Shown here piece by piece: positions 8,497 through 64,000 of a stretch of DNA of 64,000 nucleotides. Origin of the DNA: Arthrobacter sp. SLBN-122 (GTDB lineage Bacteria > Actinomycetota > Actinomycetes > Actinomycetales > Micrococcaceae); contig NZ_VFMS01000001.1 of NCBI RefSeq assembly GCF_006715165.1, positions 4,278,001 through 4,342,000 on the forward strand, in the 5' to 3' direction. The notes beneath the pieces were generated by a model. The model was not told the DNA's origin. It made no database searches and worked only from the letters and a program-made list of their open reading frames with translations. A program made the translations under genes and the position numbers. Each line of letters opens with the position of its first letter. Within the stretch, counting starts at the first letter, position 1.

Positions 8497-8519
8497 AGGC
8501 CCGCCGATCGGAGATTCCC

Positions 8520-9491: not shown

Positions 9492-9492
9492 C

Positions 9493-10371: not shown

Positions 10372-10373
10372 GC

Positions 10374-34503: not shown

Positions 34504-36342
34504 CTAACCGCATGACGTGGTGTCCCCTCCTATCGCCTTACGCACAGCCCGGCAATACGCCTTTTGGCCTGGAGCTTTGGGGTGGAAGCTGAATGGACTG
34601 GGCTTTGCGCCGTTTGCGAGGAGGATGCTTACCAAGCTTGAAGATTGGTAGTAGTCAACCTTGGCGCCGATGATCCAATCAGCATCGCTGGATTTAGAGC
34701 CTGCTGAGCATACTTCGTGACCGCCGAAGGCATCTACAACCGGTGCGAATGAAATTCGTTGCTGTGTTGGGTCGGCTACGGCTACTTCATCCCTGATCTG
34801 TTGGTTCAGTAAATCGCTCATTTTATTCATCCAAGTCATGTCAGCCTTGGTGAACGAGAGTGGTATGCCTTGGCTAAGAAAGGCCGTCGAGCCAACGTAG
34901 CATGTCGCGGGAGGTACTTTCGGGAATAGATGAGGGTACCCAGCGACCACGATACGAGCTTGTGGGGCCCTCGCCATGATCTGTGCATAGACTTCATGCA
35001 GAGAGGGCACCCCGCATCCCTTCAAAGGGGGAAGATTGCAAACGTTCTGCTTTCCGGAACCGAGCGCAATGATGGCATTCGTTACATCATGGTCGTACTT
35101 TTGGCATGCGGGATGAAAGGGATCAATTCGAGCATCAACAGCTTTAATGCATGCGCCGAGCACGTCTGCAAAACCTGCATCATTTCCCCCGATGGTCAGC
35201 GTGACAAGCTTCACGCTCGGGTCTGTTTTTCCCTCAAGGGCGATTCTGTCGAGTTGGGCGACTTCGTTCCACTGTCCGTGGTAAAAATTTGGGATCTCTG
35301 CGCCGGCACAGGCCCAGTGTTTCCCGACCGGAACACCTAATTTGCCACTCATCAGCACCGGATACGCTGCCGCAGATCGGTGGCATCGGTTCTCCTCTTG
35401 ACCGGTTTTCGTGTCGGTAGGCTGATCCGTCCCGGAGGCAAAGGGCGGGTTGCCCTCACCGGCCGAGTACGAATCGCCAAGGGCGACATAGCGGGACGGA
35501 TCCACAGGCTTCGCTCCCGGCTTGCAGTCGGTTGCCACGTTGGCCACTGTCCCGACTCTAAGGTTGTCCAGCATGACGGCCGAATCTAGGTTGTGGTCGC
35601 CCTGGTCGAAAATAGAAAGGTACAACGAATGGGCTCCGGGACTGATGGGCGTTGCTGCACTGAGGGCAGGCGTCGCGCCGTCGTAGGTGGTGCCTGCGGC
35701 TTCCGTAGCCGACATGGACGTTACCCCCGCGGCATTAATGGTGATCGGGTTTCCTTGCGGGTCAAACGCGAAATTGTCCGGAGCGTTGATCAAAGTACCC
35801 AAGGTGGTCCACGTCGACTTGTCCAGCTCAGCGATGAATGCGTCGTTATAGGAGGTGCCAACGTACTCCGGGTACTCGTCTGAAAGGAACCGAAAGTCGA
35901 TGCCGACGAGGCAATTGGCGTTGCTGGGGACGTTTAAGTCGATTTTGAGGATGGTTACATCGAGGTCGGTGTTGCCACGTACGTTTCCACCGGCGATGTT
36001 TTGCCCCGAACCTCCTGAGGTGTTTGGTTGATCGGCCAGGGCTGCATTGCCTGTCGTCAACAGTGTGTAGCTGTTGCCCGACTTCGGGAACCCGGCCAGC
36101 GGCGTGGTCATGACGGCATTGGGTGTCCCTTGGGGCGGGACAGTGACATAGCTGGCGCCGGTAATCACGCTCGCGTCGGACGCTAGGGCGTTGGCGAGCT
36201 GCAAGGGCGACGCTCCGGTGTCAGTGCTGGCTGCAACTGGTGTTGCCAGACTGACGCACGCCGCTGACATTAAAGAGAGGACTACTCCAAAAATGGAGGC
36301 CCGACGGGTCAGCGGACCGGAGGTGGGCGTTGCCTTTTTCAT
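34504..36342 (-). CDS. Secreted choice-of-anchor L domain plus SGNH/GDSL hydrolase
   Basis: The 612-residue protein has a basic N-terminus and signal peptide (FGVVLSLMSAACVSLATPVA). A choice-of-anchor-L-type beta domain follows at about residues 45-265, marked by DFRFLSDEYPEYVGTSYNDA. The SGNH hydrolase domain shows block I YVALGDSYSAGEGNP (Ser), block III TIGGNDAGF, and block V FSFHPKAPGQKAYC (Asp position atypical, His present). Several Cys pairs suggest disulfides. It is likely exported and cleaves an ester in a polymer or lipid. The stop is near the long inverted repeat. Confidence 0.88.
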   Translation of the reverse strand: MKKATPTSGPLTRRASIFGVVLSLMSAACVSLATPVAASTDTGASPLQLANALASDASVITGASYVTVPPQGTPNAVMTTPLAGFPKSGNSYTLLTTGNAALADQPNTSGGSGQNIAGGNVRGNTDLDVTILKIDLNVPSNANCLVGIDFRFLSDEYPEYVGTSYNDAFIAELDKSTWTTLGTLINAPDNFAFDPQGNPITINAAGVTSMSATEAAGTTYDGATPALSAATPISPGAHSLYLSIFDQGDHNLDSAVMLDNLRVGTVANVATDCKPGAKPVDPSRYVALGDSYSAGEGNPPFASGTDQPTDTKTGQEENRCHRSAAAYPVLMSGKLGVPVGKHWACAGAEIPNFYHGQWNEVAQLDRIALEGKTDPSVKLVTLTIGGNDAGFADVLGACIKAVDARIDPFHPACQKYDHDVTNAIIALGSGKQNVCNLPPLKGCGVPSLHEVYAQIMARAPQARIVVAGYPHLFPKVPPATCYVGSTAFLSQGIPLSFTKADMTWMNKMSDLLNQQIRDEVAVADPTQQRISFAPVVDAFGGHEVCSAGSKSSDADWIIGAKVDYYQSSSLVSILLANGAKPSPFSFHPKAPGQKAYCRAVRKAIGGDTTSCG

Positions 36343-37167: not shown

Positions 37168-40100
37168 CTAGTTTGGGGCACCTTTCTCATGTCGCAACTC
37201 CAGGGTGAGTTGATCTGCAGCTGCGAACTCGCGTACTCGGAGTTGAACAGTCCGCTTGCGTATGACGTCTTCCGATTTTGAAGAGGCAAGTGTCCCGAAA
37301 GGGTCTTGCACGGCTCTCACGAAGGGTGGGGCGTTTTCGAGATCGGCGCGAAGATTGCCAACGAGATAGAGCCAGAAGCGATTTCTTAATTCGCCCCCGG
37401 CCGTCTTCCACTCGTTCCAACTCATGGCTTGAACTTGTGCGTCGACTCCGGACGATTTCAGTTCAATCATTCGATCGATTGAACCACCCTGGATGGTCAG
37501 GACGTCGAAGCCGGGGTAGAGCTCGCTGATGCCCTGCTCAGCGAGCTGGTCAAACACTTGGCCGACCACGGTGGACTGTTCGATGGCGGCTACGATCATC
37601 TCCGGCGAGCTGACGTCGACGATGAGCACGTCCGCATTCTCAGAGGGCGTCTCCCCTGGGAGTACGACGGTCTTCTGCCCGGCGAATCGTCGCTCCTCGA
37701 ATGCGAAGGATATACGCATGCCAAGACGGTCAAGTTCGTTCAGGTCGGTGCCGGCGGCTGCCCTTGGCACGCCTTCAGAACCACCCCCTTGGTCGCCATG
37801 TCCGTCACTTGCCGCCCCGGGTTGACCGTTCTTTCCTTGGGTCTCGTGTTTGGGTCCTGTTCCCTCGATACGGATGAGTTCTCCCTCTATCAGAAGGTCC
37901 TCGTAGCGGTGCAGCGGGATTCGTGGTGCAGCACGGGTCGGAGCGGGAGGGGTTCGGTCTGCTTGCCCGGTGGCCGCTTCTGTTGACTCGCCGTCTGTCG
38001 TGTCGAGCTCGTGGCCTTCAACGCGGTTTGCCAGTTGATCGACCTGATAGGCGTCACCTCCGAGATCGGCAAGGTCTTGCTGCACCTCCTCCAGCTTCTC
38101 CGCGGCGCCGGCCAGATCGAGCAGTTGCTGTCGCTGCGCGCGGTCTGCGTTGATGAACGATAAAAAGGTCTCGACAGTGTTGACCTCCAAGGTCTCCGCA
38201 AGAGCCAAGGCCAAGGTATGAGCGTCCTCTGCTATCGGCGGCCACGCCGGGCCGGACCACACGGCGAAACCTTGAAATCCTGATTCCTCGGAGCGCCGCA
38301 CGTAGTACGTCCGCTGGGGAATGTAACCGAGGTCCTGCCCTCCGAATGAACAACGGAGATTCAGCGACTCCACGAGTTCCAACTTCTCAGCGAATTCAGT
38401 CAAGACCCGCTGGTCGGCTCTACTCCGGTCAGCTCGATCGGCACTTAGACGGGCGAGTAGCGGTGGGATGAGGTCTCGGAGTCCTTGGCGGAAAGTGCCG
38501 AGGCCGGATGGTTCAAGAGGAGTCTCGCCCGGCCTCGCCGACCACTCCAACGCGCTCTCAAGGAGTGGGGTCCCGAAGAGCTCGCGGAGCGGACGAAGCG
38601 CTCCCGGCTCGGCCTCAAGAACGAACAACGGCACCTTGTTTTGAACACCGCTCCGTTCTCGGCTGCCAGACACCGACGCGTACACCACGTCTCGCGCGCT
38701 GAGGAACTCGTACCCAGCCGCAGTGCGAGCGGCAAGCGGGGTGTCAATAAGTGGCGCCCCGTTGTTCACAGTGCTACCGACCAGGAGTTCGAACATCTGT
38801 CGGTAGATCGGCCGCAGTTCCGAGCGCAGCGCCTGGTCGGTGATGCCCGCCGGGTAGAGTTGCGAAATGCGTACGCAGAGATCGTGCGCATCCTCGGCAT
38901 TGAACGCGGCCGGAGTAAGCTCACCGCGGACTTGCAGTTCGTCGAGGCAAGCGCGGAGTGTGGACGCCGGCACCCCAGTCGGTTGTTTGAGGACGGGAAG
39001 GTAGACATCGGCGTCGCGCCCGCTGCGGCCCAGACGACGAACAAGCTCCTCGGATCGACGCCAACTCTGGTTTGGACGCCGCGGACCATGACTAGTGGGG
39101 CAGATCGCGTGGTGACGAAGGCGGTAGAGCCATAGATCTGGGCCAGCATTAACGAGTTCTTCCGACGTTGCTCGCGGAGGAGCCGTGCGGGACGACGGCC
39201 ATTTGCCGGCTCCGACGAATGCCAGCTTGGCCTGGGTGTGGCGGGCGTAGGTGTTCCAGTTGCGAACGAGGTGGTCGAGCAGCTTCTCGGCCACGTCGGT
39301 GTCCCTACGGAGGGCGACTCTCGCGATCTCGTCGAGCCGATCAAGGTTGTGAACCTGATAGAGGTAGTGATCCGTCTGCTCCCACCGTGGATGGGACGCA
39401 AGTGCGCCGACGAGATCCGATTGGTATTCGGACCAGACCTTGTCCAAGCCCGAGAAAGCCCATCCACCAGGGAGACCGAGACCCTTAGTGTTTGTCCACC
39501 CGGTCCCGGTGTCGTCAACATCGTGAAAGTGGATCAGTCTCAAACCACGGCTCACTCCGAGCCAAGCGAAAAAGTTGCGCCAGCGATCATCGATGGTGGT
39601 TTCAAGTGCTTCGTCGGTGTCGTCATCTAGGTCAACTTCTCCCTCGTCGGGATCGATTGTCGCTGGACTCGCGTCGTCATCCTCGTTGACACCGATGCTG
39701 GCAGAGAACTCGGCGAACACGTCGGGCGATGCAAGGAATCGGACCTGCAAGACCTCGCCCGCATCGGCCATTGCTTCAACGATCGGCTCCACAGAGTCAT
39801 CGCCAACCCAGTCGCTTCCGAAGTAAACCTGATGGGCCGGTGCCCAGGTCAACTCCCCGGTGTCATCGGCACGACACGGAACATCAAGGCGACTGAGATT
39901 GAAGAACGCTCGATCCGAACCGAGCCGGCCCATGGGAAGAGGCTGATCGGATTTGGTGGTTTTTCCGGCCAATCGACATATCGTGGCGAGCGTTTCGATG
40001 GTGCGGTTTGACTCTCGCAACTCAGCATCGGACCCTGCCGTGCGCGTTAGTCCTGGGAGGACCGCAGCGCGCATTACCTCCTCGAAGCGGAACTCTTTGA

Positions 40101-42000
40101 CGTCAAAGAGTGCATCCCACGCCTTCATCTGGCGCTCCAGAACCGACCTCTGTTCGGTCCTGCCGAGCGTGCCCCAGCAGACCCCATGTGCGAGGAACTG
40201 TAACTTACGGAGGGGAAGTTCCTCTGCGGAAGAGCGCGGCGGGTAAAACGCACTTTCACCTCGCAGTGCTATCCGCCTAACGGTTCCATCGTCGTTTTCG
40301 CCGACAGGGAAGACCGGTTCCAGCCGGGCGCTCTCCTCCAGGGCTTGGCGATCCGCCGCGTCCGATCGTTCCCAGAGGAGTGCACAAAGATCAAGCACTG
40401 GGTCAACCTGATAACGAGCGTCGAGGCTTGGCCTCAACGCTGTCTTCCCCGTGTCGAGATTGTGCGCAAGGGCGCGTAGTGAGTCAATCGGGCTCAGCGC
40501 CACTGACCCGTAGGCCGCACACACCCTGGCAAGCGTGCCTTCACACAACTCCGGATCAGGGAATTGTCTTCCTTCAAGGACGCAGTCCGGCTTGAGGGAG
40601 GCAGCGAAGGCGGAGCCCTCCGCTCCAAGAACGTGCGATGGAAAAACCGCCTCATTGAGGGCGAGTTCATTCGGTCCTGAGGGCAGGAAACGGACACCCG
40701 TCATTGCCCTGGCAATGGCCTCGGCGAGGAGTCCGCCTGCCGACCCGGAATCGCTTTCGCCTCGATCCAGAACTCGCAGGACGTAACGGGGGCCACCCTC
40801 GGCAAGGAGGTGAGGCATGAGCATCCGCACAAATGTCTCGGCTGCGCAACGTACGAGATACCCGTTGTAGTTCGACTCGGTGTCCGCGACTTGAATGTGC
40901 TGCCGTGAAAGGTCAGTCGTGAAGGCCCCGTTGACCAGCAACGAGCAGGATGAAGCCTCCTGGGTAGGCAGGAAGACGTGAAACCTGCGGTCCTCCGGCC
41001 TGACCCGTGGGTCGTCGGCATCCCGGACCGCGACCGACACTTCGCTGACGTCCACGCCCTCCCATGCCGGCCCAGTCAAGCCGTCGCGGTGATCGCCGAT
41101 TCGCACGTTACCGTCGTGAGCGATCCAGTAACTGTCGCCCTTACCTTCACGGTTAACCAAGTCGACCCTGAAAAGGCCCGACTCCGTCAGGCCAACACAC
41201 CGCTCGGCGCCAGAGGAAGTCACTCGGTGCCTCTCCAGGAGCCACTGACGGTCTGACTCCTCGCTGGAGGTCGAAACCTCAATGACCACTTCTTCAAGGT
41301 GCTTGAGGAAGAGCACACTGGTCATCGGCAGGTTCAATAATTGATGCGCGAGTGCTGCCTTTTGTTCGGAGCTAACCCGTTCGTGGAACGGGAATCGAAA
41401 CGCGCTGTGATAGCCGGTTGCACGCAGTTGGTCCCAGGTCTCGTGCCCCTCGGCGATCGCCCACGGGAAGCGCATCGCCGGCACCCCGCGGACCTTGCCG
41501 CGGTCAAACTCCTTCCAGAGCAGAGACACCTGCGCTTCCGCCTGCTCCCGCCCCAATCGGAAACACACCGTCTCGGAGTAGGCCTCTGGGCTGTCGGTGA
41601 TTTCAAGGACCGACTTGAAGCCCAACCCCTTGTGACCGATGCTGGCGCGCTTAGGGCCCCCGGACTGCGCCTTGGAACTGGCTCCCAAGCCGCACAATCC
41701 GCGAATATCGGCCTCTGTGAAGGGGCGCCCCGTATTGGCAACCCACAGCTCGCTGTCGGTGAGTCGAAACAAAACCCTGTCTTCAGTCCTCGCAACGCCC
41801 ACCAGCGCGTCATCCGCATTCTGGAGGAGCTCATACACGAGACGCCCGCGATAGTCATGGGCGACCTGCGCCTCTTGGCTGACGTCCTCCAGGAGCCGGC
41901 CCTGTGACTCCCGGTACACAGCGAGGTTCTCACGGCAAATGCGCTCGAGGATGTCATCGGGCAGGGGCGTCGTCGCAGTCACGTACGTATTCCACCACAT
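37168..42000 (-). CDS. Sacsin-like GHKL ATPase with C-terminal DUF3883/NO VEIN nuclease-like domain
   Basis: This 1610-residue protein has an N-terminal histidine-kinase/Hsp90-type ATPase of the sacsin kind. The N box is RLVYELLQNADDA (Asn near 61), the G1 region is WVANTGRPFTEADI (89-94) and the G2 loop is IGHKGLGFKSVLEI (122-130). A long helical middle, with an acidic insertion near residue 770, links to a disordered Glu/Gly-rich segment (about 1340-1410). The end is a DUF3883-like domain with GFDVLTIQGG and RMIELKSSG, which fits a D...E-x-K nuclease site. No good ribosome site precedes ATG 42000. Large GHKL/DUF3883 proteins are frequent in defence islands. It lies downstream of the Hsp70 gene set on the same strand. 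Confidence 0.85.
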   Translation of the reverse strand: MWWNTYVTATTPLPDDILERICRENLAVYRESQGRLLEDVSQEAQVAHDYRGRLVYELLQNADDALVGVARTEDRVLFRLTDSELWVANTGRPFTEADIRGLCGLGASSKAQSGGPKRASIGHKGLGFKSVLEITDSPEAYSETVCFRLGREQAEAQVSLLWKEFDRGKVRGVPAMRFPWAIAEGHETWDQLRATGYHSAFRFPFHERVSSEQKAALAHQLLNLPMTSVLFLKHLEEVVIEVSTSSEESDRQWLLERHRVTSSGAERCVGLTESGLFRVDLVNREGKGDSYWIAHDGNVRIGDHRDGLTGPAWEGVDVSEVSVAVRDADDPRVRPEDRRFHVFLPTQEASSCSLLVNGAFTTDLSRQHIQVADTESNYNGYLVRCAAETFVRMLMPHLLAEGGPRYVLRVLDRGESDSGSAGGLLAEAIARAMTGVRFLPSGPNELALNEAVFPSHVLGAEGSAFAASLKPDCVLEGRQFPDPELCEGTLARVCAAYGSVALSPIDSLRALAHNLDTGKTALRPSLDARYQVDPVLDLCALLWERSDAADRQALEESARLEPVFPVGENDDGTVRRIALRGESAFYPPRSSAEELPLRKLQFLAHGVCWGTLGRTEQRSVLERQMKAWDALFDVKEFRFEEVMRAAVLPGLTRTAGSDAELRESNRTIETLATICRLAGKTTKSDQPLPMGRLGSDRAFFNLSRLDVPCRADDTGELTWAPAHQVYFGSDWVGDDSVEPIVEAMADAGEVLQVRFLASPDVFAEFSASIGVNEDDDASPATIDPDEGEVDLDDDTDEALETTIDDRWRNFFAWLGVSRGLRLIHFHDVDDTGTGWTNTKGLGLPGGWAFSGLDKVWSEYQSDLVGALASHPRWEQTDHYLYQVHNLDRLDEIARVALRRDTDVAEKLLDHLVRNWNTYARHTQAKLAFVGAGKWPSSRTAPPRATSEELVNAGPDLWLYRLRHHAICPTSHGPRRPNQSWRRSEELVRRLGRSGRDADVYLPVLKQPTGVPASTLRACLDELQVRGELTPAAFNAEDAHDLCVRISQLYPAGITDQALRSELRPIYRQMFELLVGSTVNNGAPLIDTPLAARTAAGYEFLSARDVVYASVSGSRERSGVQNKVPLFVLEAEPGALRPLRELFGTPLLESALEWSARPGETPLEPSGLGTFRQGLRDLIPPLLARLSADRADRSRADQRVLTEFAEKLELVESLNLRCSFGGQDLGYIPQRTYYVRRSEESGFQGFAVWSGPAWPPIAEDAHTLALALAETLEVNTVETFLSFINADRAQRQQLLDLAGAAEKLEEVQQDLADLGGDAYQVDQLANRVEGHELDTTDGESTEAATGQADRTPPAPTRAAPRIPLHRYEDLLIEGELIRIEGTGPKHETQGKNGQPGAASDGHGDQGGGSEGVPRAAAGTDLNELDRLGMRISFAFEERRFAGQKTVVLPGETPSENADVLIVDVSSPEMIVAAIEQSTVVGQVFDQLAEQGISELYPGFDVLTIQGGSIDRMIELKSSGVDAQVQAMSWNEWKTAGGELRNRFWLYLVGNLRADLENAPPFVRAVQDPFGTLASSKSEDVIRKRTVQLRVREFAAADQLTLELRHEKGAPN

Positions 42001-42037
42001 GGTCCCGACAAAATGTGGGTCGACCTCGCGAGGGTTC

Positions 42038-42064
42038 GGAGTTTTGCGCTTGTGTCAAAACTCC
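42038..42064. repeat. Inverted repeat upstream of the GHKL ATPase gene
   Basis: GGAGTTTTG, nine-base spacer, CAAAACTCC, centred about 50 bases before ATG 42000. It could be an operator. The rest of the 338-base gap (42001-42337) shows no supported gene. Confidence 0.45.
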
Positions 42065-42337
42065 CTACTAGGTATGCCCGTGGATTGGACCAGCCTCCTG
42101 GAACGTCTAACTCGCTAGCGATGGACTAGTCGCTCACGTATAACTCCGGCCCTCAGATGCGAGCATGAACGCGAAGGCGGATCGCAATGTGGTTACTGCG
42201 GGTGGTTAAGGGAGGGCGCTCATATCTCGATCATTCGAAAGTTGCGGGCCCCGGAGACCGTCCCTGGCTGAGCTCCAACGCAGCGGCCTCTTGGCAGGCT
42301 GGATTGTCCGGCTGGGTGATAGTTGGGGCCGTGCGGC

Positions 42338-42649
42338 CTAATAAAGGAAGTCGTGCTGGCCGACCTCGCCGCGCCTTTGGGCCGCTTTCATGGCAACTCG
42401 AACCGCCTTAACACGGATGTAGTTGAACGTCCTCACGACTTCTCCCGGCGACGCGTTGGTATTCAGGGACCATGCAACGAGGTCGTTGTATTCCTTGCGC
42501 GCCTCTACGTCCTCAGGTAGGGAACTCTCGGCCAGAGAAGCCATGTATGCGTCGGCAAGGCTGTGGCAGTGCTCACCTGTGTAGTGGTTCTTCAAAAAGC
42601 TAGCTTCCATGGCCGCGGCCAGTTCGGCACTACGAGCGTCTGAATTCAT
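42338..42649 (-). CDS. Hypothetical helical protein (103 aa)
   Basis: ATG 42649 overlaps the stop of the preceding gene by four bases (ATGA), so the two are coupled. The product is all-helical by appearance: SAELAAAMEASFLKNHYTGE, then SLPEDVEARKEYNDLVAWSL and VRTFNYIRVKAVRVAMKAAQ. No Cys pair and no membrane helix. Unknown function; position ties it to the Hsp70 gene set. Confidence 0.7.
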   Translation of the reverse strand: MNSDARSAELAAAMEASFLKNHYTGEHCHSLADAYMASLAESSLPEDVEARKEYNDLVAWSLNTNASPGEVVRTFNYIRVKAVRVAMKAAQRRGEVGQHDFLY

Positions 42650-43920
42650 TCCTGGGACGCTCTCTCCGGGGTGTCTGCCGTGTCTCGCTTCCGCGACTTA
42701 AACAAACCAGCGACTTTTCCACCCGCCGCGCCCGTGGCTCCAGCGAGTGCCCCACCGAGGCCCTTGACCGCGCTGAGGGCCTGCGGCTCATCCGGAATAC
42801 CGTCGCCGTCCACATCTACGGCACGGAACGGGCGGGACACCGCAGCGGCAGCGCTTGCCACCCCCGAGCTCACGGCGGAGGCACCGGTTGCCACCCCTTC
42901 TCCAACTGTGCTGGCCGTCCCAGTGATCCAGCTTCCCGTGGACTTCGCTGCCTCCTCCAAGGCTGCAAGCGCCCGGTTGGGTTCGGATTCCTGGTCGTCG
43001 GCGTCGGACAATTCGATCTGCAGGGCAAGGTGGGCCGGGAACTCTGCCGGAGCCTCGGGGAATGCTTTACGGGCGGATTCAACGACGTCCCGGCCAAACA
43101 CGAAGCGGCTCACGCCGCCAGTCAGCGCACCCACGCCGTATTCGATCGCCGTCTGATGTTTTCCGTTCAAGGTTTCCCGCACGGTGTCCAGCTGACCCGT
43201 TTGCATGGTCCGTACGAGGCTTTGCGCGGCGCCGCTGGGCAAGGTATCAGCCAGCGTAGTTGCCCAGTGGGACCAGTCCCCGCCGGCGGCGGCAAATTTC
43301 TGGCCAACGCCCACCACACCGTCGGGGGAAGTCTCCGCGACGTCCTTGGCCATGATGGCAATCTGCTCCTGGCTTACCCGCTCATTGGTCAGCCCGTAGA
43401 CCAGGGCATGTGCCTGGTCCTGGTCAAGGGCCTTCCCATGGATGTCGGCGAGGGCCAGGCCGTAGATCGCTGTGAGCTCAAATTGGAGCTGCTGATCTCC
43501 TGCCGGGAGCAGCGCCGCGATCCGGTTCGCACCGCTTTTTGCCGCACCCATGGCCATATTCTTTGCCGCAACTTTCGCCGCTTCCTTGGCGGTTACCTGC
43601 ACGGTCTTCTTGGCGGCCTGCTTGCCTGCAGTCTTGATACCGGCGGCCGCTACTCCCCCGCCCGGAATGAGGGCAATTCCAACTTCAGCTGCGATCGACC
43701 CCGCAGTAATCGCGGCCCCTGCAGCCGTAATTGACGTGCTGTAGTGACGTTCGAGCAGCCTGATTACCTCTGCGGGGGTCGCCTCAGGACGCCGGCGCCG
43801 AATCCGCATGACGTATTTGCGCGCGATTGAGTGACGGGCACTGACCGCCTTCGCGATGTCTGCGTTCGCTTCCTCGTCGTCCAGCTGTGTCTCCAGCGTG
43901 ACAGCTTCGCCTTCGGTCAT
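42646..43920 (-). CDS. Ala/Gly-rich, possibly EcsC-like membrane-active protein
   Basis: The 424-residue protein has a charged N-terminus (IARKYVMRIRRRRPEATPAE) and a hydrophobic Gly/Ala block at about 68-95 (TAAGAAITAGSIAAEVGIAL). An Ala/Lys helix and a region with FELTAIYGLALADIHGKALD, reminiscent of EcsC proteins, follow. Near the end are Ser/Ala/Gly-rich segments and a calcium-loop-like DVDGDGIPDEP before a final Gly-rich helix. AGAGGGGG lies nine bases before the ATG. The composition would fit a membrane-inserting effector, but that is inference. It is coupled to the 103-residue gene. Confidence 0.6.
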   Translation of the reverse strand: MTEGEAVTLETQLDDEEANADIAKAVSARHSIARKYVMRIRRRRPEATPAEVIRLLERHYSTSITAAGAAITAGSIAAEVGIALIPGGGVAAAGIKTAGKQAAKKTVQVTAKEAAKVAAKNMAMGAAKSGANRIAALLPAGDQQLQFELTAIYGLALADIHGKALDQDQAHALVYGLTNERVSQEQIAIMAKDVAETSPDGVVGVGQKFAAAGGDWSHWATTLADTLPSGAAQSLVRTMQTGQLDTVRETLNGKHQTAIEYGVGALTGGVSRFVFGRDVVESARKAFPEAPAEFPAHLALQIELSDADDQESEPNRALAALEEAAKSTGSWITGTASTVGEGVATGASAVSSGVASAAAAVSRPFRAVDVDGDGIPDEPQALSAVKGLGGALAGATGAAGGKVAGLFKSRKRDTADTPERASQE

Positions 43921-43966
43921 TTACGTTGTCCCCCTCTAAACCACAGGCTCAACCCTGAGCCTTCCA

Positions 43967-44125
43967 TCAACGCTGCAATTCAATTCGCGGCAGGGGAACC
44001 CGGGGTCCCCTGCGCGCCGTCATCAGTGTCCCGCATGAGGCGGCAACATCGTGCCCGCCACGCGGCACCACTCCGGCCACACCTGCTCCCACTGCAAGTC
44101 CGCCCGTGGTTGGTACCGCCCTCAT
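43967..44125 (-). CDS. Possible small Gly-rich protein (52 aa)
   Basis: ATG 44125 overlaps the stop of the coiled-coil gene (ATGA at 44122-44125). The frame runs 52 codons: MRAVPTTGGLAVGAGVAGVV, then Arg-rich sequence to RIELQR. The coupled start argues for translation, but the composition is unusual and there is no homology I can name, so it may be chance. Confidence 0.35.
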   Translation of the reverse strand: MRAVPTTGGLAVGAGVAGVVPRGGHDVAASCGTLMTARRGPRVPLPRIELQR

Positions 44126-45465
44126 AGGGAGCGAAGCTTCTCGATGTGACGGCGCTGTTCCTTGTCGTCTTGCTTGACGTGCACGCTGACAAGCACGCGG
44201 TCGCCATCCGGCTTGTAGTAAATGCGACCCATGTCTTCACTACCAGCAACACCGGTGCCAAGCTTCGAAACCTCGCGCCAGCCGCGCATACCTTCCAGAT
44301 CCTTGCCCACAACTTCGCCCATATCAATCTGCACCAGCGATCGCATCATAGACGCTGATGAATCGAGGTTGGCCAATACTTCAATGCTGTCGAGAACAAA
44401 GGTCAGCCGCGAGAAAGCCACATCCAGAAATCCAGAAACACCACGACGAGGTGCCCGGGCCGTCACGTTACGTCTACGCCGCTCTCGCTCGTGTTCCCCT
44501 AGTTCTTGGAGCCGTTCTTGTAGGCCGACCACAGTTGCCTCTAGCGTCAAAATCCGTACGTCGCCTTGCTCCGCCTGATCACGATAGTTCGCCAGGCTGC
44601 TACGAAGTTCGGAGTTTTCCGCGAACGCCAGTTCAAGAAGTTCTTCGGTCTCGGCCTGACGTTTCAGGAGTTTTTTCGTTTCAGCAGCTTGCCGCGGATC
44701 ACGGCTCAGCTCTGCAAGCTGATCTTGTAATGCCTTTTGATGATCTAGGGCCCGATCTAAATCGTCGGAAAGTTTTGACTCCCGACTTGAGGCGGAAGTG
44801 AGCCGCTGTCTTAGGAGCGAAACTTCAGACTCAGAGGTGCTGAGACGGTCCCTGAGTTCGGCCGTCAGATCGACCAATTGCTCGACCTGTGCTGCGAGAT
44901 CCTCTAGCGGCGAGACTGAAGGTGCCGGAGCGGGCGCAGCTGTTGGCTCGGCTGAGGCGGGCGAAAAGACGGCGGAGATCTGAGCCACGACCTCTTCGTG
45001 GCTCCCTATAAACCGGAGCCGGGCAAACCAGTCGTAGAACTTCCCCTCGGTTGTGGGACGATGGCTGACGTCCCACCGCTGGACCGAAAGACCTCCGGCC
45101 TCGAGTGCGTCGACGACATCCGTTGCAAGTCGCTCAGGGGCGTTAAAAACAAGGTAATGACCAAAGCGATTGGTCTCGACCTCCCACTCACCGTGGAAAC
45201 CTAGGAAGGTTTGCTGCTCACCGAGGTCGTCAATTTGCGGCGCGTATGGGATAGAAGCTCCTGCGAAAAGGAACCTGCTGCAGTCCTCGACTTCCCACGA
45301 TGCCCCGGAAACGTCGACCACGTCGTGGGCAAACAACGGGTACACCGCGCCCTCGTAGACAATGCCGGCATATCCGTCCGGAGTTAATCGGACCGGTCGA
45401 CGAACAAATTCCGCAACTACGGACGCACCATCTTGGATACGTACAACGACTTGCTGAGAAGCCAT
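44122..45465 (-). CDS. Coiled-coil protein with C-terminal basic beta domain
   Basis: The 447-residue protein has an N-terminal mixed domain (about 1-165) with QTFLGFHGEWEVETNRFGHY. A Pro/Ala linker leads to a coiled coil of about 150 residues (from LEDLAAQVEQLVDLTAELRD to LQERLQELGEHERERRRR). The C-terminal domain ends GRIYYKPDGDRVLVSVHVKQ, with a strand pattern like RelE/ParE-fold toxins. The start lies one base after the Hsp70 stop, so it is coupled to it. No named family recognised. Confidence 0.7.
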   Translation of the reverse strand: MASQQVVVRIQDGASVVAEFVRRPVRLTPDGYAGIVYEGAVYPLFAHDVVDVSGASWEVEDCSRFLFAGASIPYAPQIDDLGEQQTFLGFHGEWEVETNRFGHYLVFNAPERLATDVVDALEAGGLSVQRWDVSHRPTTEGKFYDWFARLRFIGSHEEVVAQISAVFSPASAEPTAAPAPAPSVSPLEDLAAQVEQLVDLTAELRDRLSTSESEVSLLRQRLTSASSRESKLSDDLDRALDHQKALQDQLAELSRDPRQAAETKKLLKRQAETEELLELAFAENSELRSSLANYRDQAEQGDVRILTLEATVVGLQERLQELGEHERERRRRNVTARAPRRGVSGFLDVAFSRLTFVLDSIEVLANLDSSASMMRSLVQIDMGEVVGKDLEGMRGWREVSKLGTGVAGSEDMGRIYYKPDGDRVLVSVHVKQDDKEQRRHIEKLRSL

Positions 45466-45466
45466 T

Positions 45467-47233
45467 TCAGGCTACCGAAGCGCACCTACAAGCGGGATCG
45501 CCCCATTTGCGCTTACAGACGGCACAGGGCTTGTAGTAGAGGTGTTCGATGAGTTGCTCATCCGTGGCCTGGTCCGGACCAGGGAGCCTCGAAAACGCAT
45601 GAGGCCGATGCTGATAAAGCACGTCTCCGGGAACCAGCCTCGTATCCTGTTGATCGGCTACGTTGGCACGGGCGATAAGGCCGTCATTGGGTATATAGGC
45701 GTCAGTGTCGGCAATATCAATTGGTCCCAGGTCATTGCTGCCAGGGAGTCCGATGCCGAACTCCAGGTCAAAGTAGGACGCATGTGCTTTGTCGCCGCGC
45801 TGCTTGGACATAGCGCTAACAGACAAGATGAGGTTGTCGTCGACCTTTACGTCTAGTTCCAGCCGCTCGACCAGAGGTGGTGCTGTCTTGTCAACAGCAA
45901 TGGCTACCATGCCGAGAGACGTTCTCGGATCGCTGGCTTGGGGTTGATCAGCAAGCTCAGTTGGCGCCACTATGGCGAACTTTGCCGCGCCGTCGGTGGG
46001 GTCGGTGCAGTACAAGTGAAAGCGGTCTTGACATACCTCGCCATCATTCGGCATGGCTGTTCCGGCCCTCAACAATGGAAGGCGTGAACCACGCGCCATT
46101 TCCAGCTCAATGGGCTTTGCCAGCACCAGCCGCTGTGAGTCGTGAGCTATGCGCGCCGCTCCCTGCGAAACAAGCGTGGCACTGTTCGCAGGGACGAGTA
46201 CTCGTTCAGGCCCGAAGAGTTCGTGCAGTCGGCTGCGAATGCTTGGCATCGCGGCCATACCACCGGCAACCAGGCAAAGTGAGACTTGAGCGGGTGCCAT
46301 GCCGACGCTGTCAAGGAGTGATTCAATCTCCTTGATGCCGGATGCCACAAGAGGTCGTGTAATTGCGTCCAGCTCTTGCCGCGTTAGCGGGTACTCAAGT
46401 GTGGTCTCGGATTCTGGAAAGTAGCCTGGACGATAGAAAGTGACGCTCGGCCGCTCCGAGAGTGCAATCTTGTTCCGTTCCGCATCCTGCAACAGCCTGA
46501 GCCGTGCTTCCTTCGTGGGGTGATCTGATTTAGAGATCCCGTGCTTCGTAGAGAATCGCGCGACGACCTCGTCACGTATCACTTCATCGAATTTGTCGCC
46601 CCCGACTGTGTCAGTTCCCCCGTTGCGGAGCTGGAGGATCCGCCCTGGCTCAATTCTGCAAAGTGTGAGGTCGAGGGTACCGCCACCCCAGTCAACGACC
46701 AGTACGTTGCGTCGCATCAGGCCCCGTATTTCGCTGTCGGTATCTGCTGCACCGCGGAGGTAGCCGTAGAGGGCTGCAAGTGGTTCGTGAACAAACTGAG
46801 CCACAGAGATTCCGGCGTGGGCGAACGCTTCTCGAAGAGCCGCGCGTCTCGGGCCGTTCATGTTCACAGGAATCGTAACCACTGCACGGTCCAGCTCGCC
46901 CAGCACTTGTCGCTGACCGCTTCGCCGTGATTCGGAACGGACGTGGCGGATGACATCTGCCACAATCTCGATGGGGCTGCGGTCGACGCCTCCGACAGTC
47001 ACTGATTCCTCGCCTAGGAGAAACTTCGGGGAGCGCACGGTGTTGCCATACACGCCGAGACCGACTTCTTCAAGCGCATGGCGGGCCTCGCGTCCGACGA
47101 CGACTTCCTCGCCCTCGTATCGAACGACAGATGGGTGCGGCAGGCCTTCATCGTCCAAAACGTCAATAACACGGTCGCCAACCACCACAGAAACCAGACT
47201 GTTAGTCGTTCCGAAATCAAAACCTGCAATCAT
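45467..47233 (-). CDS. Hsp70-like ATPase with C-terminal Cys cluster
   Basis: The 588-residue protein of the Hsp70/actin-like ATPase fold shows phosphate-1 FDFGTTNSLVSVVVGD at residue 5, phosphate-2 VLVVDWGGGTLDLTL near 190, and the adenosine loop LCLVAGGMAAMPSIRSRL near 330. A substrate-binding-like domain follows (about 390-540). The end is not the DnaK lid or EEVD but a Cys-rich tail, CAVCKRKWGDPACRC. It overlaps the upstream gene by ATGA and is followed after one base by the coiled-coil gene. No DnaJ or GrpE gene is nearby, so the neighbouring coiled-coil proteins may be its partners. It is a specialised paralogue, not housekeeping DnaK. Confidence 0.88.
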   Translation of the reverse strand: MIAGFDFGTTNSLVSVVVGDRVIDVLDDEGLPHPSVVRYEGEEVVVGREARHALEEVGLGVYGNTVRSPKFLLGEESVTVGGVDRSPIEIVADVIRHVRSESRRSGQRQVLGELDRAVVTIPVNMNGPRRAALREAFAHAGISVAQFVHEPLAALYGYLRGAADTDSEIRGLMRRNVLVVDWGGGTLDLTLCRIEPGRILQLRNGGTDTVGGDKFDEVIRDEVVARFSTKHGISKSDHPTKEARLRLLQDAERNKIALSERPSVTFYRPGYFPESETTLEYPLTRQELDAITRPLVASGIKEIESLLDSVGMAPAQVSLCLVAGGMAAMPSIRSRLHELFGPERVLVPANSATLVSQGAARIAHDSQRLVLAKPIELEMARGSRLPLLRAGTAMPNDGEVCQDRFHLYCTDPTDGAAKFAIVAPTELADQPQASDPRTSLGMVAIAVDKTAPPLVERLELDVKVDDNLILSVSAMSKQRGDKAHASYFDLEFGIGLPGSNDLGPIDIADTDAYIPNDGLIARANVADQQDTRLVPGDVLYQHRPHAFSRLPGPDQATDEQLIEHLYYKPCAVCKRKWGDPACRCASVA

Positions 47234-48375
47234 TGCACTCCCCCATCCAGTTCCTTAAGGCGCGTGACCTCACCACCGATTGCAGTGAGTGCCCTGTCCA
47301 CAAACTCCTCCGCTACACCTGTGCTTCCATGGCGAAGGGCGTGAAGCCCGTCCCCTAAAAGCTCAGCCTGAGTAGCGAGCCGTCGAATCACCTGCGTTCT
47401 GAGAGCCTCATAGTCATCGACGTGGTGGCTCTTATCAACCACGCGGTTGCTTTGCTCTACGGAAAGCCGCAGCTCAAGTTCGTTGGCTCTGGCCGCCAGC
47501 TCCGCGGCATCTGCTCGTACCTTCTCTAGATCTGTTGCCAGTCTATTTCCCAAACCCTCGGCCCTTATGGCACGAAGCTCCTGCTCCCGAGCTTGCGAAA
47601 TGGCCTTCTCTGTTTCCCTCTTCGAATCACGGAGAACACTCTCGAAGTGCCGTGAGACCTGACTCAGTGCCTCTGTATTCCTTGCTGTCGCCAGAACAGC
47701 AGCCGTCTTGTATGCACTTGGCAGTGCCGGAGCGTCCCAGACGGTGGCGCTCATGTCCTCGATGAACTGCCGCGAAGTCCACCGATCGCGGAGAACGCGG
47801 AAGAGCTCAAGAGCGGTTACCGCGTTGGTGCGTAGCCGCTCCCGGCCTGCGTCGGTAAATTCGGATTCATCTTTCAGCCCCAAGTCGCTGAATCTAACCT
47901 GCTTGGCGGCACGGTTAACCTCTTCGGCGGTAAGCCTTTTCAAGGGCTGCTGCTCCGTCAAGTGCTCAATCCGCCCCTCGAAGAGTTTGTGGCTGGCGAA
48001 AGCCACGACAACTAGATCGAGAACGCGGCGACGCACAAGCGTTTCTGATCCCAGCTCAGCCAGCGATGACAATAAAGCCGGCGGGACGGCGAATAGCAGA
48101 TCTCTACCCGCTAATTGCCGAACAGTATCGGTTTCTGCTTGCTCATCCTCTGGCCGTACGGACAGCTCGAATATATCCTTCCGCGACAAATTTAGCTTTC
48201 GTCCCGCTTCGCTGTAGGCATATTCCATCAATGCGAGGATCGTTTTGGGCCGCTCCCGCTTGCTGCTGTTTCCCGGGTTGGGCTGCTGTGGGCCGGTGGC
48301 CGCTGGTTCCTTGGAAAGGAGCGAGTGCGAGCCGTCAGTCGGATGAACTCCAGTGGGTCCGTCGTCTGTTGTCAC
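47230..48375 (-). CDS. Coiled-coil protein of the Hsp70 gene set
   Basis: The 381-residue protein has a disordered N-terminus (about 1-45) and a helical domain (ALMEYAYSEAGRKLNLSRKD to about 190). A coiled coil follows, from RHFESVLRDSKRETEKAISQ to NELELRLSVEQSNRV, with a short C-terminal helical end. GTG 48375 overlaps the stop of the zinc-finger gene (GTGA) and its own stop overlaps the Hsp70 start (ATGA). The layout would suit a nucleotide-exchange or adaptor role for the Hsp70, by loose analogy with GrpE; there is no sequence proof. Confidence 0.7.
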   Translation of the reverse strand: MTTDDGPTGVHPTDGSHSLLSKEPAATGPQQPNPGNSSKRERPKTILALMEYAYSEAGRKLNLSRKDIFELSVRPEDEQAETDTVRQLAGRDLLFAVPPALLSSLAELGSETLVRRRVLDLVVVAFASHKLFEGRIEHLTEQQPLKRLTAEEVNRAAKQVRFSDLGLKDESEFTDAGRERLRTNAVTALELFRVLRDRWTSRQFIEDMSATVWDAPALPSAYKTAAVLATARNTEALSQVSRHFESVLRDSKRETEKAISQAREQELRAIRAEGLGNRLATDLEKVRADAAELAARANELELRLSVEQSNRVVDKSHHVDDYEALRTQVIRRLATQAELLGDGLHALRHGSTGVAEEFVDRALTAIGGEVTRLKELDGGVQ

Positions 48376-49508
48376 TTTCTAAGAACTCCTTGACGTTGAA
48401 CTCGAGGTCGGAAACTTCTGTACCATTTCTCGCTGAGACGGCTGTGTCGAAGGCTTTCGGCATGTCGCAGCGCCGCAGCGAGGTCTCCTACAGCCAGCGC
48501 GTGCTCAGCCAACACCAGGTGGAGCTTGAGCGCGTCGTATGGTCGTTGCGAGCCAATATTCGCAGCCAGCTCAGCCATGTCACCGCCTGCTGTGCCGTCA
48601 AGTGGCAATGCGGTCCACCGGAGCACTTGTTCGATTATCGAGTCGCTGAGCGCGACATCTAGGCTCGGGTGTGGCGACTGCGACAGCGCATCGGGCGACC
48701 AGCTTTCCCCTTTGAGGAGCGCCTGAAGGCGTAGAGACACTTCCGCAACGCGTTGGCTCTTGGTCTTCGTCATGGCGCGTTCGAACTGGTTGTAGTGAAA
48801 GGCGACTATGCCACATATGGCCTCTGCTGGAGGGCGATCGAAACTTCTCAAAATTCCGACAGCCTGATCGTATTTGCCCTCATAGCCACTGCCCTCACCC
48901 GATCGCTCGGAACCCTCTGCCCCAGCAGCATCCTCGCGTGCCAGAACGCCATAAAGGTAGTTTGCGAGACCGGACTGATACCGGACTGCAGTGCGGTGTT
49001 GCTTACAACGCATGATGAAGTCGTCGATAGACCTGCGGCTTAGCTCGCCCCCGTCGACCAGGCGCGCCAAGGCAGCGTCAACGCCGTCAAGATCGTCCAT
49101 ATCAGCCAGAGCGAACTCGAACTGGAAAGTCTCCACAACATCCAGATTCGAAAGCTTCACGTCCACAACACCGCTCCGTTGAGACGACAGAAATTCTGCA
49201 GCGTCTCCAATAGAAATTGTCCTGCCATTGATGCTCACAGCGTCAGCTGTGCGAATCACCCAATCCTTCGGCATGGTTTCGCTGGTGATGATTAGCCGAC
49301 TCCTGCCGCATTCCCGCCCATTGAAAACGAGAACAGGACGTCGCACGGGGTGACCCTCAAAAGTGTGTACGCGGAGATCCCGGGCCGTTGAAAACTCCAC
49401 CCCGCAGGTCGTACACGGAAACGTCACCTCTTTGGGCTCCGCGAATGGACTTGAACCTTCACCTGTAGGCTCATGAAATTCCATGTAGCCGGTGTGCCAA
49501 AAACCCAC
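48372..49508 (-). CDS. C2H2 zinc-finger protein heading the Hsp70 gene set
   Basis: The 378-residue protein has a classical C2H2 finger near its N-terminus: FPCTTCGVEFSTARDLRVHT followed by FEGHP (C-x2-C-x12-H-x4-H, about residues 31-52). A beta-rich domain follows (NGRTISIGDAAEFLSSQRSG), then a helical C-terminal half with TPR-like character (YDQAVGILRSFDRPPAEAIC to the end). GTG 49508 overlaps a possible upstream gene stop by one base; ATG 49484 is the alternative start. A single C2H2 finger is unusual in bacteria and could bind DNA or protein. It is coupled to the next gene. Confidence 0.75.
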   Translation of the reverse strand: MGFWHTGYMEFHEPTGEGSSPFAEPKEVTFPCTTCGVEFSTARDLRVHTFEGHPVRRPVLVFNGRECGRSRLIITSETMPKDWVIRTADAVSINGRTISIGDAAEFLSSQRSGVVDVKLSNLDVVETFQFEFALADMDDLDGVDAALARLVDGGELSRRSIDDFIMRCKQHRTAVRYQSGLANYLYGVLAREDAAGAEGSERSGEGSGYEGKYDQAVGILRSFDRPPAEAICGIVAFHYNQFERAMTKTKSQRVAEVSLRLQALLKGESWSPDALSQSPHPSLDVALSDSIIEQVLRWTALPLDGTAGGDMAELAANIGSQRPYDALKLHLVLAEHALAVGDLAAALRHAESLRHSRLSEKWYRSFRPRVQRQGVLRK

Positions 49509-49955: not shown

Positions 49956-50612
49956 TTACGGAATCTGGATCCGTGCAGCTTCCTGGAGCAGCGGATCAGA
50001 AATCATGACGGTGGCAGCTCCTGGTGCAATATCGAAGGCAATGTTGCCCCGTGCCTTATCGCCGGGCAGGACCTCCCCTGAACCCAGTTGGTTATCGGCG
50101 AACATGCTCATGTCTGCCTTACGCCCGTTGGCATCCTTTGCCGAGAAGTAGAGCGGGTTGGAGCTCGTCTTGCCGGATTCCGTTTCCCAGAGCACGTCCA
50201 GGAGCAGGTAGGTGCCGTTCTTGGGCGGGGTAGCGAACGCGCCGGTGGTGACAGAGTCGGTGCGGACCGCGGACACGACAGTGATCCTGGCGACGTTGCC
50301 GTTGCGCATCTTCACGGAGAACGGAACGCCCACAGTAGGCGCCGCGGGAGCGGCAGGAGCGGACGATGGCGGTGCTGCCGCCGTCGGGGCGGCCGTAGCG
50401 GCGGCAGCCGGTGCAGTCGCTTCAACGGAGGCCGTGGCGGAGGCGATGGGGCTGGAGTCCGCGGCCTGCTTGCTTCCGCCGGAGCAGGAGCCCATGACGA
50501 TGGCCACCAGGAGGACGCCTGCGGGGACGACGAAGCGCTTTTTCTTGTAAAACGGCCGGGCTGCCGGCCTCTGGGCAGCCGGCGGGACAGGGGCAAAGTT
50601 TTGGTTGGTCAT
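49956..50612 (-). CDS. DUF4352 lipoprotein-like membrane-anchored protein
   Basis: The 218-residue protein has a basic N-terminus and one hydrophobic segment ending VAIVMGSCSGG, a lipobox-like site. A long Ala/Pro/Thr linker (about 50-95) leads to a DUF4352 immunoglobulin-like domain: VPFSVKMRNGNVARITVVSA, then GTYLLLDVLWETESG and FDIAPGAATVMIS. ATG 50612 has GAAAGG upstream. DUF4352 domains are extracellular and common beside secretion or stress genes. It follows the 226-residue membrane gene on the same strand. Confidence 0.82.
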   Translation of the reverse strand: MTNQNFAPVPPAAQRPAARPFYKKKRFVVPAGVLLVAIVMGSCSGGSKQAADSSPIASATASVEATAPAAAATAAPTAAAPPSSAPAAPAAPTVGVPFSVKMRNGNVARITVVSAVRTDSVTTGAFATPPKNGTYLLLDVLWETESGKTSSNPLYFSAKDANGRKADMSMFADNQLGSGEVLPGDKARGNIAFDIAPGAATVMISDPLLQEAARIQIP

Positions 50613-50663
50613 GATGGTGCCTTTCAAGTGATGCGATTGGATGATGCTGCGGAGTAGCAGTGG

Positions 50664-53616: not shown

Positions 53617-55244
53617 TGCCCCCGAAAGTGAAAGTGGACCTCGCCCCGTCCACCATGAAGGAACTCAAAGACACGCTCTGGAAAGCGGCGGACAAACTCC
53701 GCGGTTCGATGGACGCCTCACAGTACAAGGACGTGATCCTTGGGTTGGTGTTCCTGAAGTACGTGTCGGACGCGTTCGAGGAACGGCGCGAACAGATCCA
53801 GGCCGAGCTGGAAGCTGACGGACTCAACGAAGAGCAGATCGCCCAGCTCATCGATGACGTTGACGAATACACCGGCCGCGGCGTGTTCTGGGTAGCCCCC
53901 CGGGCACGCTGGACCTACCTCGCGGAGAACGCCAAGGGCCTGGACGCAGTGGACGGCGCGGCGCCGAAGTCCATCGGGCTGCTGATCGATGAGGCCATGG
54001 AACTCATCATGCAGGACAACAAGAGCCTGGCCGCCACCCTTCCCAAGATCTACAACCGGGACAACGTGGACCAACGCCGCCTGGGCGAACTGCTGGACCT
54101 CTTTAACTCAGCACGGTTCACCGGCCAGGGCGCCAGCAAGGCGCGCGACCTGCTGGGCGAGGTGTACGAATACTTCCTGGAGAAATTCGCCAAGGCCGAG
54201 GGCAAGCGCGGCGGCGAGTTCTACACCCCTGCTGGCGTGGTCCGGGTGCTGGTGGAGGTGCTGGAGCCGCACCGAGGCCGGGTTTACGACCCGTGCTGCG
54301 GTTCGGGCGGCATGTTCGTCCAGGCGGAGAAGTTCCTGGCCGCCCACCACCTTGAGGGTTCCGACATCTCCGTTTACGGCCAGGAGCTGAACGAGCGCAC
54401 GTGGCGGATGGCCAAGATGAACCTCGCCATCCACGGGCTGAACGCCAATCTGGCCTCGCGCTGGGGCGACACGTTCGCCCGCGACCAGCACCCAGAACTG
54501 ACCGGGAACAACGGCGCGGACTTCATCATGGCCAATCCGCCATTCAACATCAAAGACTGGGCACGCTCGGAGTCGGACCCGCGCTGGAAGTACGGCGTCC
54601 CGCCGGCCGGCAACGCCAATTACGCCTGGATCCAGCACATCATCTCCAAGCTTGCTCCCGGCGGCAGCGCAGGCGTGGTCATGGCCAACGGCTCCATGTC
54701 CTCCAACTCGGGCGGCGAGGGCGAGATCCGCGCGCAACTGGTGGAGGCCGACCTCGTCTCCTGCATGGTGGCGCTGCCCACGCAGCTTTTCCGCAGCACC
54801 GGCATTCCGGTGTGCACTTGGTTCTTCGCGAAGGACAAGACGGCGAGTTCTCGAGGGTCGGTGGACCGGACCGGGCAGGTGCTCTTCATCGACGCCCGGA
54901 ACCTGGGCTACATGGTGGACCGCGCTGAGCGTGCACTGTCCGACGACGACATCGCCAAGATCGCAAACACCTACCACGCCTGGCGCGGCACAGCTTCGGC
55001 TGTTGAAGCAGGGCTGACGTACGACGACGAAGCGGGCTTCTGCTACTCGGCTTCACTTTCGGAGGTGAAGGCAGCGGACTACGCGCTGACGCCCGGACGC
55101 TACGTTGGGGCGGCCGATGTTGAGGACGACGGCGAGCCTATCGAGGAGAAGCTCGCGCGGCTTTCGAAGGACCTTTTCGAGAAATTCGAGGAGTCGGAAC
55201 GGTTGGCTGCCCTGGTGCGCGAGCAGTTGGGGAGGGTCCTGTGA
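53616..55244 (+). CDS. hsdM: Type I restriction-modification methylase subunit HsdM
   Basis: The 542-residue N6-adenine methylase has the HsdM N-terminal helical domain (TMKELKDTLWKAADKLRGSM, residues 10-29). The SAM motif is RVYDPCCGSGGMFVQ near residue 225 and the catalytic motif is FIMANPPFNIKDWA near 305. The length is typical. It modifies adenine in the target set by HsdS, together with which it forms the M2S methylase. It is coupled to the upstream 685-residue gene (TAATG) and to hsdS (GTGA). Confidence 0.97.
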   Translation: MPPKVKVDLAPSTMKELKDTLWKAADKLRGSMDASQYKDVILGLVFLKYVSDAFEERREQIQAELEADGLNEEQIAQLIDDVDEYTGRGVFWVAPRARWTYLAENAKGLDAVDGAAPKSIGLLIDEAMELIMQDNKSLAATLPKIYNRDNVDQRRLGELLDLFNSARFTGQGASKARDLLGEVYEYFLEKFAKAEGKRGGEFYTPAGVVRVLVEVLEPHRGRVYDPCCGSGGMFVQAEKFLAAHHLEGSDISVYGQELNERTWRMAKMNLAIHGLNANLASRWGDTFARDQHPELTGNNGADFIMANPPFNIKDWARSESDPRWKYGVPPAGNANYAWIQHIISKLAPGGSAGVVMANGSMSSNSGGEGEIRAQLVEADLVSCMVALPTQLFRSTGIPVCTWFFAKDKTASSRGSVDRTGQVLFIDARNLGYMVDRAERALSDDDIAKIANTYHAWRGTASAVEAGLTYDDEAGFCYSASLSEVKAADYALTPGRYVGAADVEDDGEPIEEKLARLSKDLFEKFEESERLAALVREQLGRVL

Positions 55245-56398: not shown

Positions 56399-56486
56399 CT
56401 GTGTAGCGCGCTTGTGGTGGGCGGCCGGGGTGGCCGCCCTGAGGCTGAGTATCTTAAACAACGAGATGGATTTTGGGGGAATCACC

Positions 56487-63967: not shown

Positions 63968-64000
63968 GTTCCCCACCCGTTCACACCCTCGAAGCCATCC
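63964..64000 (-). CDS. Possible 3' end of tniA (cut by window)
   Basis: One minus-strand frame is open from the window edge, reads DGFEGVNGWGT and stops at 63964, overlapping the TniB ATG by four bases. The position is where a TniA transposase would end. Too short to identify by sequence. Confidence 0.3.
   Translation of the reverse strand, partial: DGFEGVNGWGT

Follow-up and report, generated by a model that had tools for sequence, protein, structure and literature searches.

Hsp70 proteins are known from two kinds of bacterial conflict operons, the CoCoNuT type IV restriction systems and the GAP1-N2 GTPase systems, and here we compare with both a set of four genes from Arthrobacter sp. SLBN-122. 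The genes lie on the minus strand at 44122-49508 of a 64-kb stretch (hereafter the window; bases 4278001-4342000 of the single 4.47-Mb contig that makes up the host genome) and encode a protein with one C2H2 finger (ZF), a coiled-coil protein (CC1), an Hsp70 and a second coiled-coil protein (CC2); we refer to them as the core. As described in PMC11090510, CoCoNuT systems share with the core an Hsp70 domain and coiled-coil proteins in a predicted defence operon, whereas their centre consists of an McrB GTPase and McrC homologues, neither of which was matched in the core by Pfam, NCBIfam or PADLOC models. The same source reports the CoCoNuT Hsp70 to be probably a very weak ATPase, while the motifs of the core Hsp70 are intact. 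The GAP1-N2 systems are, according to PMC7159879, actinobacterial and firmicute conflict operons with an HSP70 and sometimes a TPR protein, to which the core is similar, but the core of the window gave no match to a GTPase, FNIII or GrpE.

Two further comparisons concern chaperones more generally. The DnaK-DnaJ-GrpE machine shares with the core the Hsp70 ATPase and the beta substrate-binding domain; however, the best match of the core Hsp70 ends before the lid, a CxxC...CxC motif stands at its C-terminus, and no HPD motif or GrpE was found in its partners, although the host's own proteins could serve. The bNACHT25 protein senses phage through host DnaJ, as reported in PMC12169576, and is a case of a chaperone machine in bacterial phage sensing, but it relies on host DnaJ and a NACHT protein, and the core has no NACHT match. 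Since Hsp70 is known in CoCoNuT and GAP1-N2 operons, we set the core among the Hsp70-containing conflict operons, and with the McrB or GTPase centre missing here there is a fair chance that it goes beyond those already known. The four-gene set falls under no specific model of PADLOC, Pfam or NCBIfam, and it was not found described in the open-licence literature searched. A preliminary description of the locus had known of no named defence system with this gene content, and for the core this holds: ZF, CC1 and Hsp70 matched no model of PADLOC-DB 2.0.0 (E 0.01), and CC2 gave weak coiled-coil matches alone (E 0.0005-0.007).

Conservation of the four-gene core

The features of the core are as follows.

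48372..49508, minus strand: ZF, 378 amino acids (aa), GTG start, opens the core operon; conserved N-terminal GFWHxGYxEFHE segment
about 49350-49421 (residues 30-53), minus strand: single C2H2 finger of ZF, followed by a beta-rich middle and a TPR-like helical C-terminal half
47230..48375, minus strand: CC1, 381 aa, core gene; variable N-terminus, helical middle, coiled coil
C-terminal ~60 residues of CC1, minus strand: strongly conserved
45467..47233, minus strand: Hsp70, 588 aa, with intact ATPase motifs and a match over the beta part of the substrate-binding domain
about 45482-45526 (residues 570-584), minus strand: C-terminal CxxC...CxC motif of Hsp70
44122..45465, minus strand: CC2, coiled-coil protein of 447 aa; conserved N- and C-terminal parts without a recognised fold

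ZF and CC1 overlap by 4 nucleotides (nt; GTGA), CC1 and Hsp70 by 4 nt (ATGA), and 1 nt separates Hsp70 from CC2; the open reading frames (ORFs), lengths, strand and junctions are all as first reported for the locus.

To find further copies, six short peptides from ZF, including the N-terminal motif, were run against genome contigs. This yielded 20 loci, whose content was judged by tblastn of the seven window proteins, by ORF clustering and then by family profiles. ZF, CC1 and Hsp70 follow one another in the same order and on the same strand in 18 of these 20 loci (by tblastn or clustering, and by profile in all 18), and the carriers are Actinomycetota, Proteobacteria and one cyanobacterial metagenome-assembled genome (MAG). 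With the CC1 of the window as tblastn query, a CC1 was recovered in 16 of the 18; for L020 and L022 it came to light by blastp, clustering or profile. One of the two remaining loci, L023, terminates inside ZF; the other, L008, is taken up below. With the start positions adopted, the gaps among the three genes range between -14 and +9 nt; some of them are approximate, since ORF calling was simple and three of the adopted CC1 starts do not fall on a start codon.

The fourth gene is less constant. According to tblastn and profile alike, 11 of the 18 core loci have CC2, and all 11 are actinobacterial: it was found in 11 of 12 actinobacterial core loci (missing from the Micromonospora locus L021) and in none of the six others (L016-L020 and L022). 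In three Betaproteobacteria (L019, L020 and L022), the gene of a 974-aa dynamin-like GTPase (7054-9978, plus strand) ends 23 nt before ZF and is possibly the fourth gene of the unit there. Its C-terminal MIT_C domain matches the end of a BrxL model (the L020 protein was scanned, and the other two are 88-89% identical to it). The core is best read as a self-contained ZF-CC1-Hsp70 unit with a lineage-specific fourth gene, CC2 or possibly the dynamin-like GTPase.

Other comparisons agree on the association of these genes. The divergence of ZF, CC1 and Hsp70 is correlated across loci (matrix correlation, r 0.94-0.98; 0 of 2000 permutations as high), as expected from co-inheritance, although shared ancestry alone would give a high r too. 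Profiles of Hsp70 (E 1e-100), ZF (E 0.001), CC1 (E 1e-10) and CC2 (E 1e-10) each matched 3 of 199 genomes of one genus (probably Streptomyces), the identical three and at adjacent coordinates, and at these thresholds none of the 199 carried this Hsp70 without the partners. Of all the genomes surveyed, G107, G706 and G517 are probably those of the loci L011, L010 and L005 and not additional cases. Among 72,556 plasmid records, where co-occurrence covered ZF, Hsp70 (E 1e-40) and CC2, all three matched the identical two Paenarthrobacter plasmids, and betaproteobacterial ZF and Hsp70 queries recovered just those two again. The preliminary description had proposed that homologues of these genes should be found together in other genomes if they form one system, and this is what the 18 of 20 loci and the same 3 of 199 genomes reveal for the core, and the plasmids for ZF, Hsp70 and CC2.

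The core is also rare. Of 396 Actinomycetota genomes, 2 carry ZF, as do 2 of the 197 from the host's own family, the genome under study being counted each time. Its relatives extend to the cyanobacterial MAG, two Gammaproteobacteria and the three Betaproteobacteria; a planctomycete MAG contig has a 41-residue stretch related to ZF. The Micromonospora ZF is nearer to that of the window (55%) than is the ZF of Intrasporangium (46%), a genus of the window's own order. Given this patchy distribution and the greater closeness of the Micromonospora protein, the core shows the pattern of a rare, patchy, horizontally transferred accessory unit.

At the protein level, the Hsp70 is the most readily classified member (Pfam PF00012, E 8.9e-47), and its family label from the preliminary description is secure. 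Its phosphate-binding motifs are preserved and K70, E150, D181 and T186 are invariant in 13 of 13 aligned sequences, and these Lys, Glu, Asp and Thr positions align with solved DnaK, where they correspond to K70, E171, D194 and T199. The best Pfam stretch stops at profile position 492 of 599, before the lid region, and a few weaker matches in the PDB extend to position 525-527 of 591; judged from sequence, a lid of the DnaK type cannot be clearly made out. Within the last ~60 residues lies an invariant YY-P-C-x2-C...C-x-C motif, which is likely a metal site.

For ZF, the finger of the single window protein falls under the Pfam cut-off (18.3 vs 25.2 bits), but a profile built from the whole family does match C2H2 fingers of solved structure (best E 1.7e-10) and C32, C35, H48 and H53 are invariant in 19 of 19 sequences, so that the finger originally assigned to this protein stands on the family. 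The TPR part assigned with it is weak by sequence but supported by a structure model (predicted local distance difference test, pLDDT, 83), in which a beta part (residues 59-133) precedes a helical half (137-377) resembling TPR proteins. The N-terminal GFWHxGYxEFHE segment is near-invariant, which is partly selection since it served as one of the six search peptides. In CC1 the coiled coil is followed by the best-conserved part of the protein, and in CC2 it is flanked by two conserved ends. The HPD motif is absent from 47 of 47 aligned ZF, CC1 and CC2 rows, and of the 13 Hsp70 rows two contain the triplet, in unrelated places. The partners of the Hsp70 fit none of the full-length families described so far, and neither a J protein nor a GrpE was recognised among them.

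Genes beside the core

The same strand continues downstream of CC2, and a further gene lies upstream of the operon.

42646..43920, minus strand: 'EcsC-like' gene, 424 aa, long alanine/glycine-rich stretch; neighbour outside the core
42338..42649, minus strand: 103-aa gene, overlaps the 'EcsC-like' gene; neighbour outside the core
37168..42000, minus strand: giant of 1610 aa, sacsin-type GHKL and NO VEIN C-terminal domain, TmtA (Tiamat) family; separate defence gene
49956..50627, minus strand: DUF4352 gene, 223 aa, upstream of the core operon

The order of transcription is ZF, CC1, Hsp70, CC2 and then the 424-aa, 103-aa and 1610-aa genes, and the preliminary description had read this run of seven or more genes as one defence pathway shared by the finger protein, the coiled-coil proteins, the Hsp70, the EcsC-like protein and the GHKL giant. 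The genes are indeed on one strand and adjacent, and the 'EcsC-like' gene has 4 nt in common with the 103-aa gene, but gaps of 201 nt after CC2 and 337 nt ahead of the 1610-aa gene split the row. The full order is repeated in Arthrobacter Alg241-R88 (L004), the only one of the 18 core loci, within the flanks covered, to have the last three genes after CC2. In Arthrobacter SPG23 (L005), however, where the core is highly similar to that of the window (identities of 98% for Hsp70, 93% for CC2, 91% for ZF and 86% for CC1), all three genes are absent from the 5.7 kb downstream of the core and a different stretch is found there. Distributions in the family also disagree: among its 197 genomes, TmtA (E 1e-60) is found in one, the host's own, and full-length 'EcsC-like' relatives (E below 1e-170) in six, four of them without ZF, while of the two with both an 'EcsC-like' relative and ZF, one has them on separate contigs. 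The three genes are therefore separate neighbours and not part of the core unit, and a seven-gene system, close to refuted by L005 and by the family-wide distributions, is very improbable.

The giant, moreover, belongs to a system that already has a name, which is where the earlier remark on novelty does not hold. Its sacsin-type GHKL part was correctly called (Pfam SACS, 2.5e-11; NCBIfam P_loop_sacsin, 1.4e-22), as was its DUF3883/NO VEIN domain, which scarcely clears the Pfam cut-off (23.4 vs 22.1 bits), and residues 14-1317 of its 1610 match the PADLOC model TmtA (E 5.6e-70). We take TmtA to be the protein of Tiamat, and a sacsin-type GHKL domain at the N-terminus to be what defines that system. 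The likeness to Tiamat is confined to the giant (GHKL/sacsin N-terminus, NO VEIN C-terminus, TmtA model match); nothing in the four-gene core matches TmtA. Tiamat is among the systems enriched in Actinobacteria and is nearly always chromosomal, as stated in PMC10482375.

Two other labels were not confirmed. The 'EcsC-like' protein had no Pfam match at E 0.1 or better, and one full-length relative matched SseC alone, under the cut-off of that model. A "gene remnant" had been placed beside the row, yet 34504-36342 (minus strand), downstream of the giant, is an open frame of 612 aa with recognised domains, namely a choice-of-anchor L domain and a GDSL lipase domain. The DUF4352 gene has a homologue upstream of the operon in L004 and L005; none was found among the called ORFs of the remaining core loci.

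The flanking type I restriction-modification (RM) and transposition genes noted at the outset are real. The RM operon of the window (53616-59675, plus strand) is common to L004 and L005, with HsdM 97% and HsdR 93-95% identical (97% and 95%, respectively, in L005) and HsdS just 31-33% identical, a divergence that is ordinary specificity-subunit switching. A 685-aa gene without a Pfam match, again with homologues in L004 and L005, precedes the operon. Adjoining it is a Tn7/Tn5053-like set (60955-63976, minus strand, in the window; 4964-7968, minus strand, in L107) that consists of a TniQ-like protein with DUF4379 repeats (TniQ below the cut-off), TniB, a Mu-type transposase and an ORF of 305 aa to which Pfam gave no match. 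The entire island could be cargo of this element, whose transposon ends were searched for and not found.

Defence-rich setting and proposed function

The setting of the core was assessed by putting 89 of the 171 candidate neighbour ORFs lying within 7 kb through the PADLOC models (E 1e-10), with six 20-kb stretches as controls. The neighbours matched 162 models vs 10 among 97 control ORFs, a ratio that overstates the contrast, since these are models and not proteins and one helicase fits many, and for which the controls were drawn from just four actinobacterial genomes. Scans of 31 individual neighbour proteins, part of all neighbours, gave a more concrete view. Type I RM stands beside the core in the window, L004 and L005; single loci have an Mrr-type nuclease (L006), a PbeC/DndD-like protein (L013), a GHKL protein of undefined kind (L014), an SNF2 helicase (L017), PsyrT (L019), PLD_Helicase (L020) and an nSTAND1 protein (L021), and the two plasmids carry DUF262 (GmrSD-type) proteins, a DNA methyltransferase, a helicase and a GIY-YIG nuclease. 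A weakly ZacB-like protein of L010 has homologues in L011 and L012. In these three Streptomyces loci a conserved pair follows CC2 (L010, 15719-20127; L011, 15712-20120; L012, 15350-20118), made up of a 584-aa protein without a match and the weakly ZacB-like one of 885-901 aa. The earlier reading of several genes as one unit, built on an Hsp70 with a finger/TPR-like protein and dedicated coiled-coil partners, is supported, as is its place in a defence-rich neighbourhood.

Some of the neighbours raise the question of whether the core is a helper of other defence systems (dynamin-like Leo proteins, BREX or Tiamat) that assembles or regulates big neighbouring complexes. The dynamin-like gene ends shortly before ZF in 3 of the 18 loci, LeoA and LeoBC of L010 have homologues in L012 and lie just upstream of the core in these two more, and the BREX genes PglZ and BrxL precede the core in L022. 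However, partners of this kind vary between loci, and among the 89 neighbours scanned the dynamin-type GTPase match was limited to L010, L012 and L019 (four members, by count). We consider a helper role unlikely.

Alternatively, the core might be a mobile module for protein quality control or stress tolerance, with the task of guarding the proteome of the host, or else proteins of the element itself, that merely rides in defence islands together with other mobile cargo. Its Hsp70 has an intact ATPase and beta substrate domain, its distribution is patchy and includes two conjugative plasmids, and no effector was recognised in it, all of which would suit such a module. On the other hand, defence genes make up many of the neighbours scanned, the core contains no recognised partner of the J-domain or GrpE kind, and proteases and small heat-shock proteins, which known stress islands carry, are absent among the neighbour families listed. 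This alternative strikes us as doubtful, albeit somewhat less so than a helper role.

We therefore turn to an immune function of the core itself, which we hold to be the most likely reading. We consider the chances to be about even that 44122-49508 encodes a dedicated Hsp70 machine that the ZF/TPR-like protein directs and CC1 drives, with CC2 or dynamin-like output, and that acts on phage complexes. Under this hypothesis, the Hsp70 (an ATPase and a substrate-binding beta domain with no clear DnaK-type lid) would be powered by its own partners and not by a J protein and GrpE. The ZF/TPR-like protein would carry it to a target recognised by the finger, which may be a nucleic acid or a phage nucleoprotein, and CC1 would couple to the Hsp70. 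ATP-driven remodelling could then dismantle or trap a phage protein complex, with CC2 or the dynamin-like protein supplying the output. The anti-phage function, the target and the roles of the partners are what we infer here from the conserved operon and its surroundings.

In addition to the limits on the neighbour comparison given above, several observations weigh against the hypothesis of an immune machine. Five of the 18 core loci (L007, L009, L015, L016 and L018) were without a named defence neighbour in the individual scans, which covered part of the neighbours, and defence genes cluster with unrelated mobile genes too. No nuclease, toxin or membrane effector was recognisable in the core by Pfam, NCBIfam or PADLOC scans, and profile comparison found no GrpE match for CC1 and no RelE-like match for CC2. 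ZF has no copy in 50,697 phage records or in IMG/VR. In L008 (Streptomyces, 10001-11827), a ZF 49% identical to that of the window is followed by no CC1 match before the contig stops 0.7 kb past it; L008 may be a true exception with ZF alone, a copy that has been broken or a fault of the assembly. An IS3 element splits ZF in both conjugative Paenarthrobacter plasmids (L024, 10350-18323; L025, 11938-15536), a copy of it likewise splits CC2 in one of the two, and both plasmid copies of the core may be dead. Finally, the distant loci were reached via short ZF peptides, so that the N-terminal invariance is partly built in.

A further step, which we take only tentatively, is to regard the core as a new class of immunity. 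In such a system, a dedicated Hsp70 would be both sensor and motor, a ZF/TPR-like adaptor and a coiled-coil co-chaperone would replace DnaJ and GrpE, phage nucleoprotein or assembly complexes would be dismantled or trapped, and outputs (CC2 or the dynamin-like GTPase) would be exchangeable. If the core does serve defence, it would represent an immune system powered by a private Hsp70 with its own partners across Actinomycetota, Proteobacteria and a cyanobacterial MAG, and would open to test the general question of whether chaperones can be directed against foreign proteins. Should it prove to be a stress module instead, it would still be a mobile Hsp70 machine with partners outside the described full-length families.

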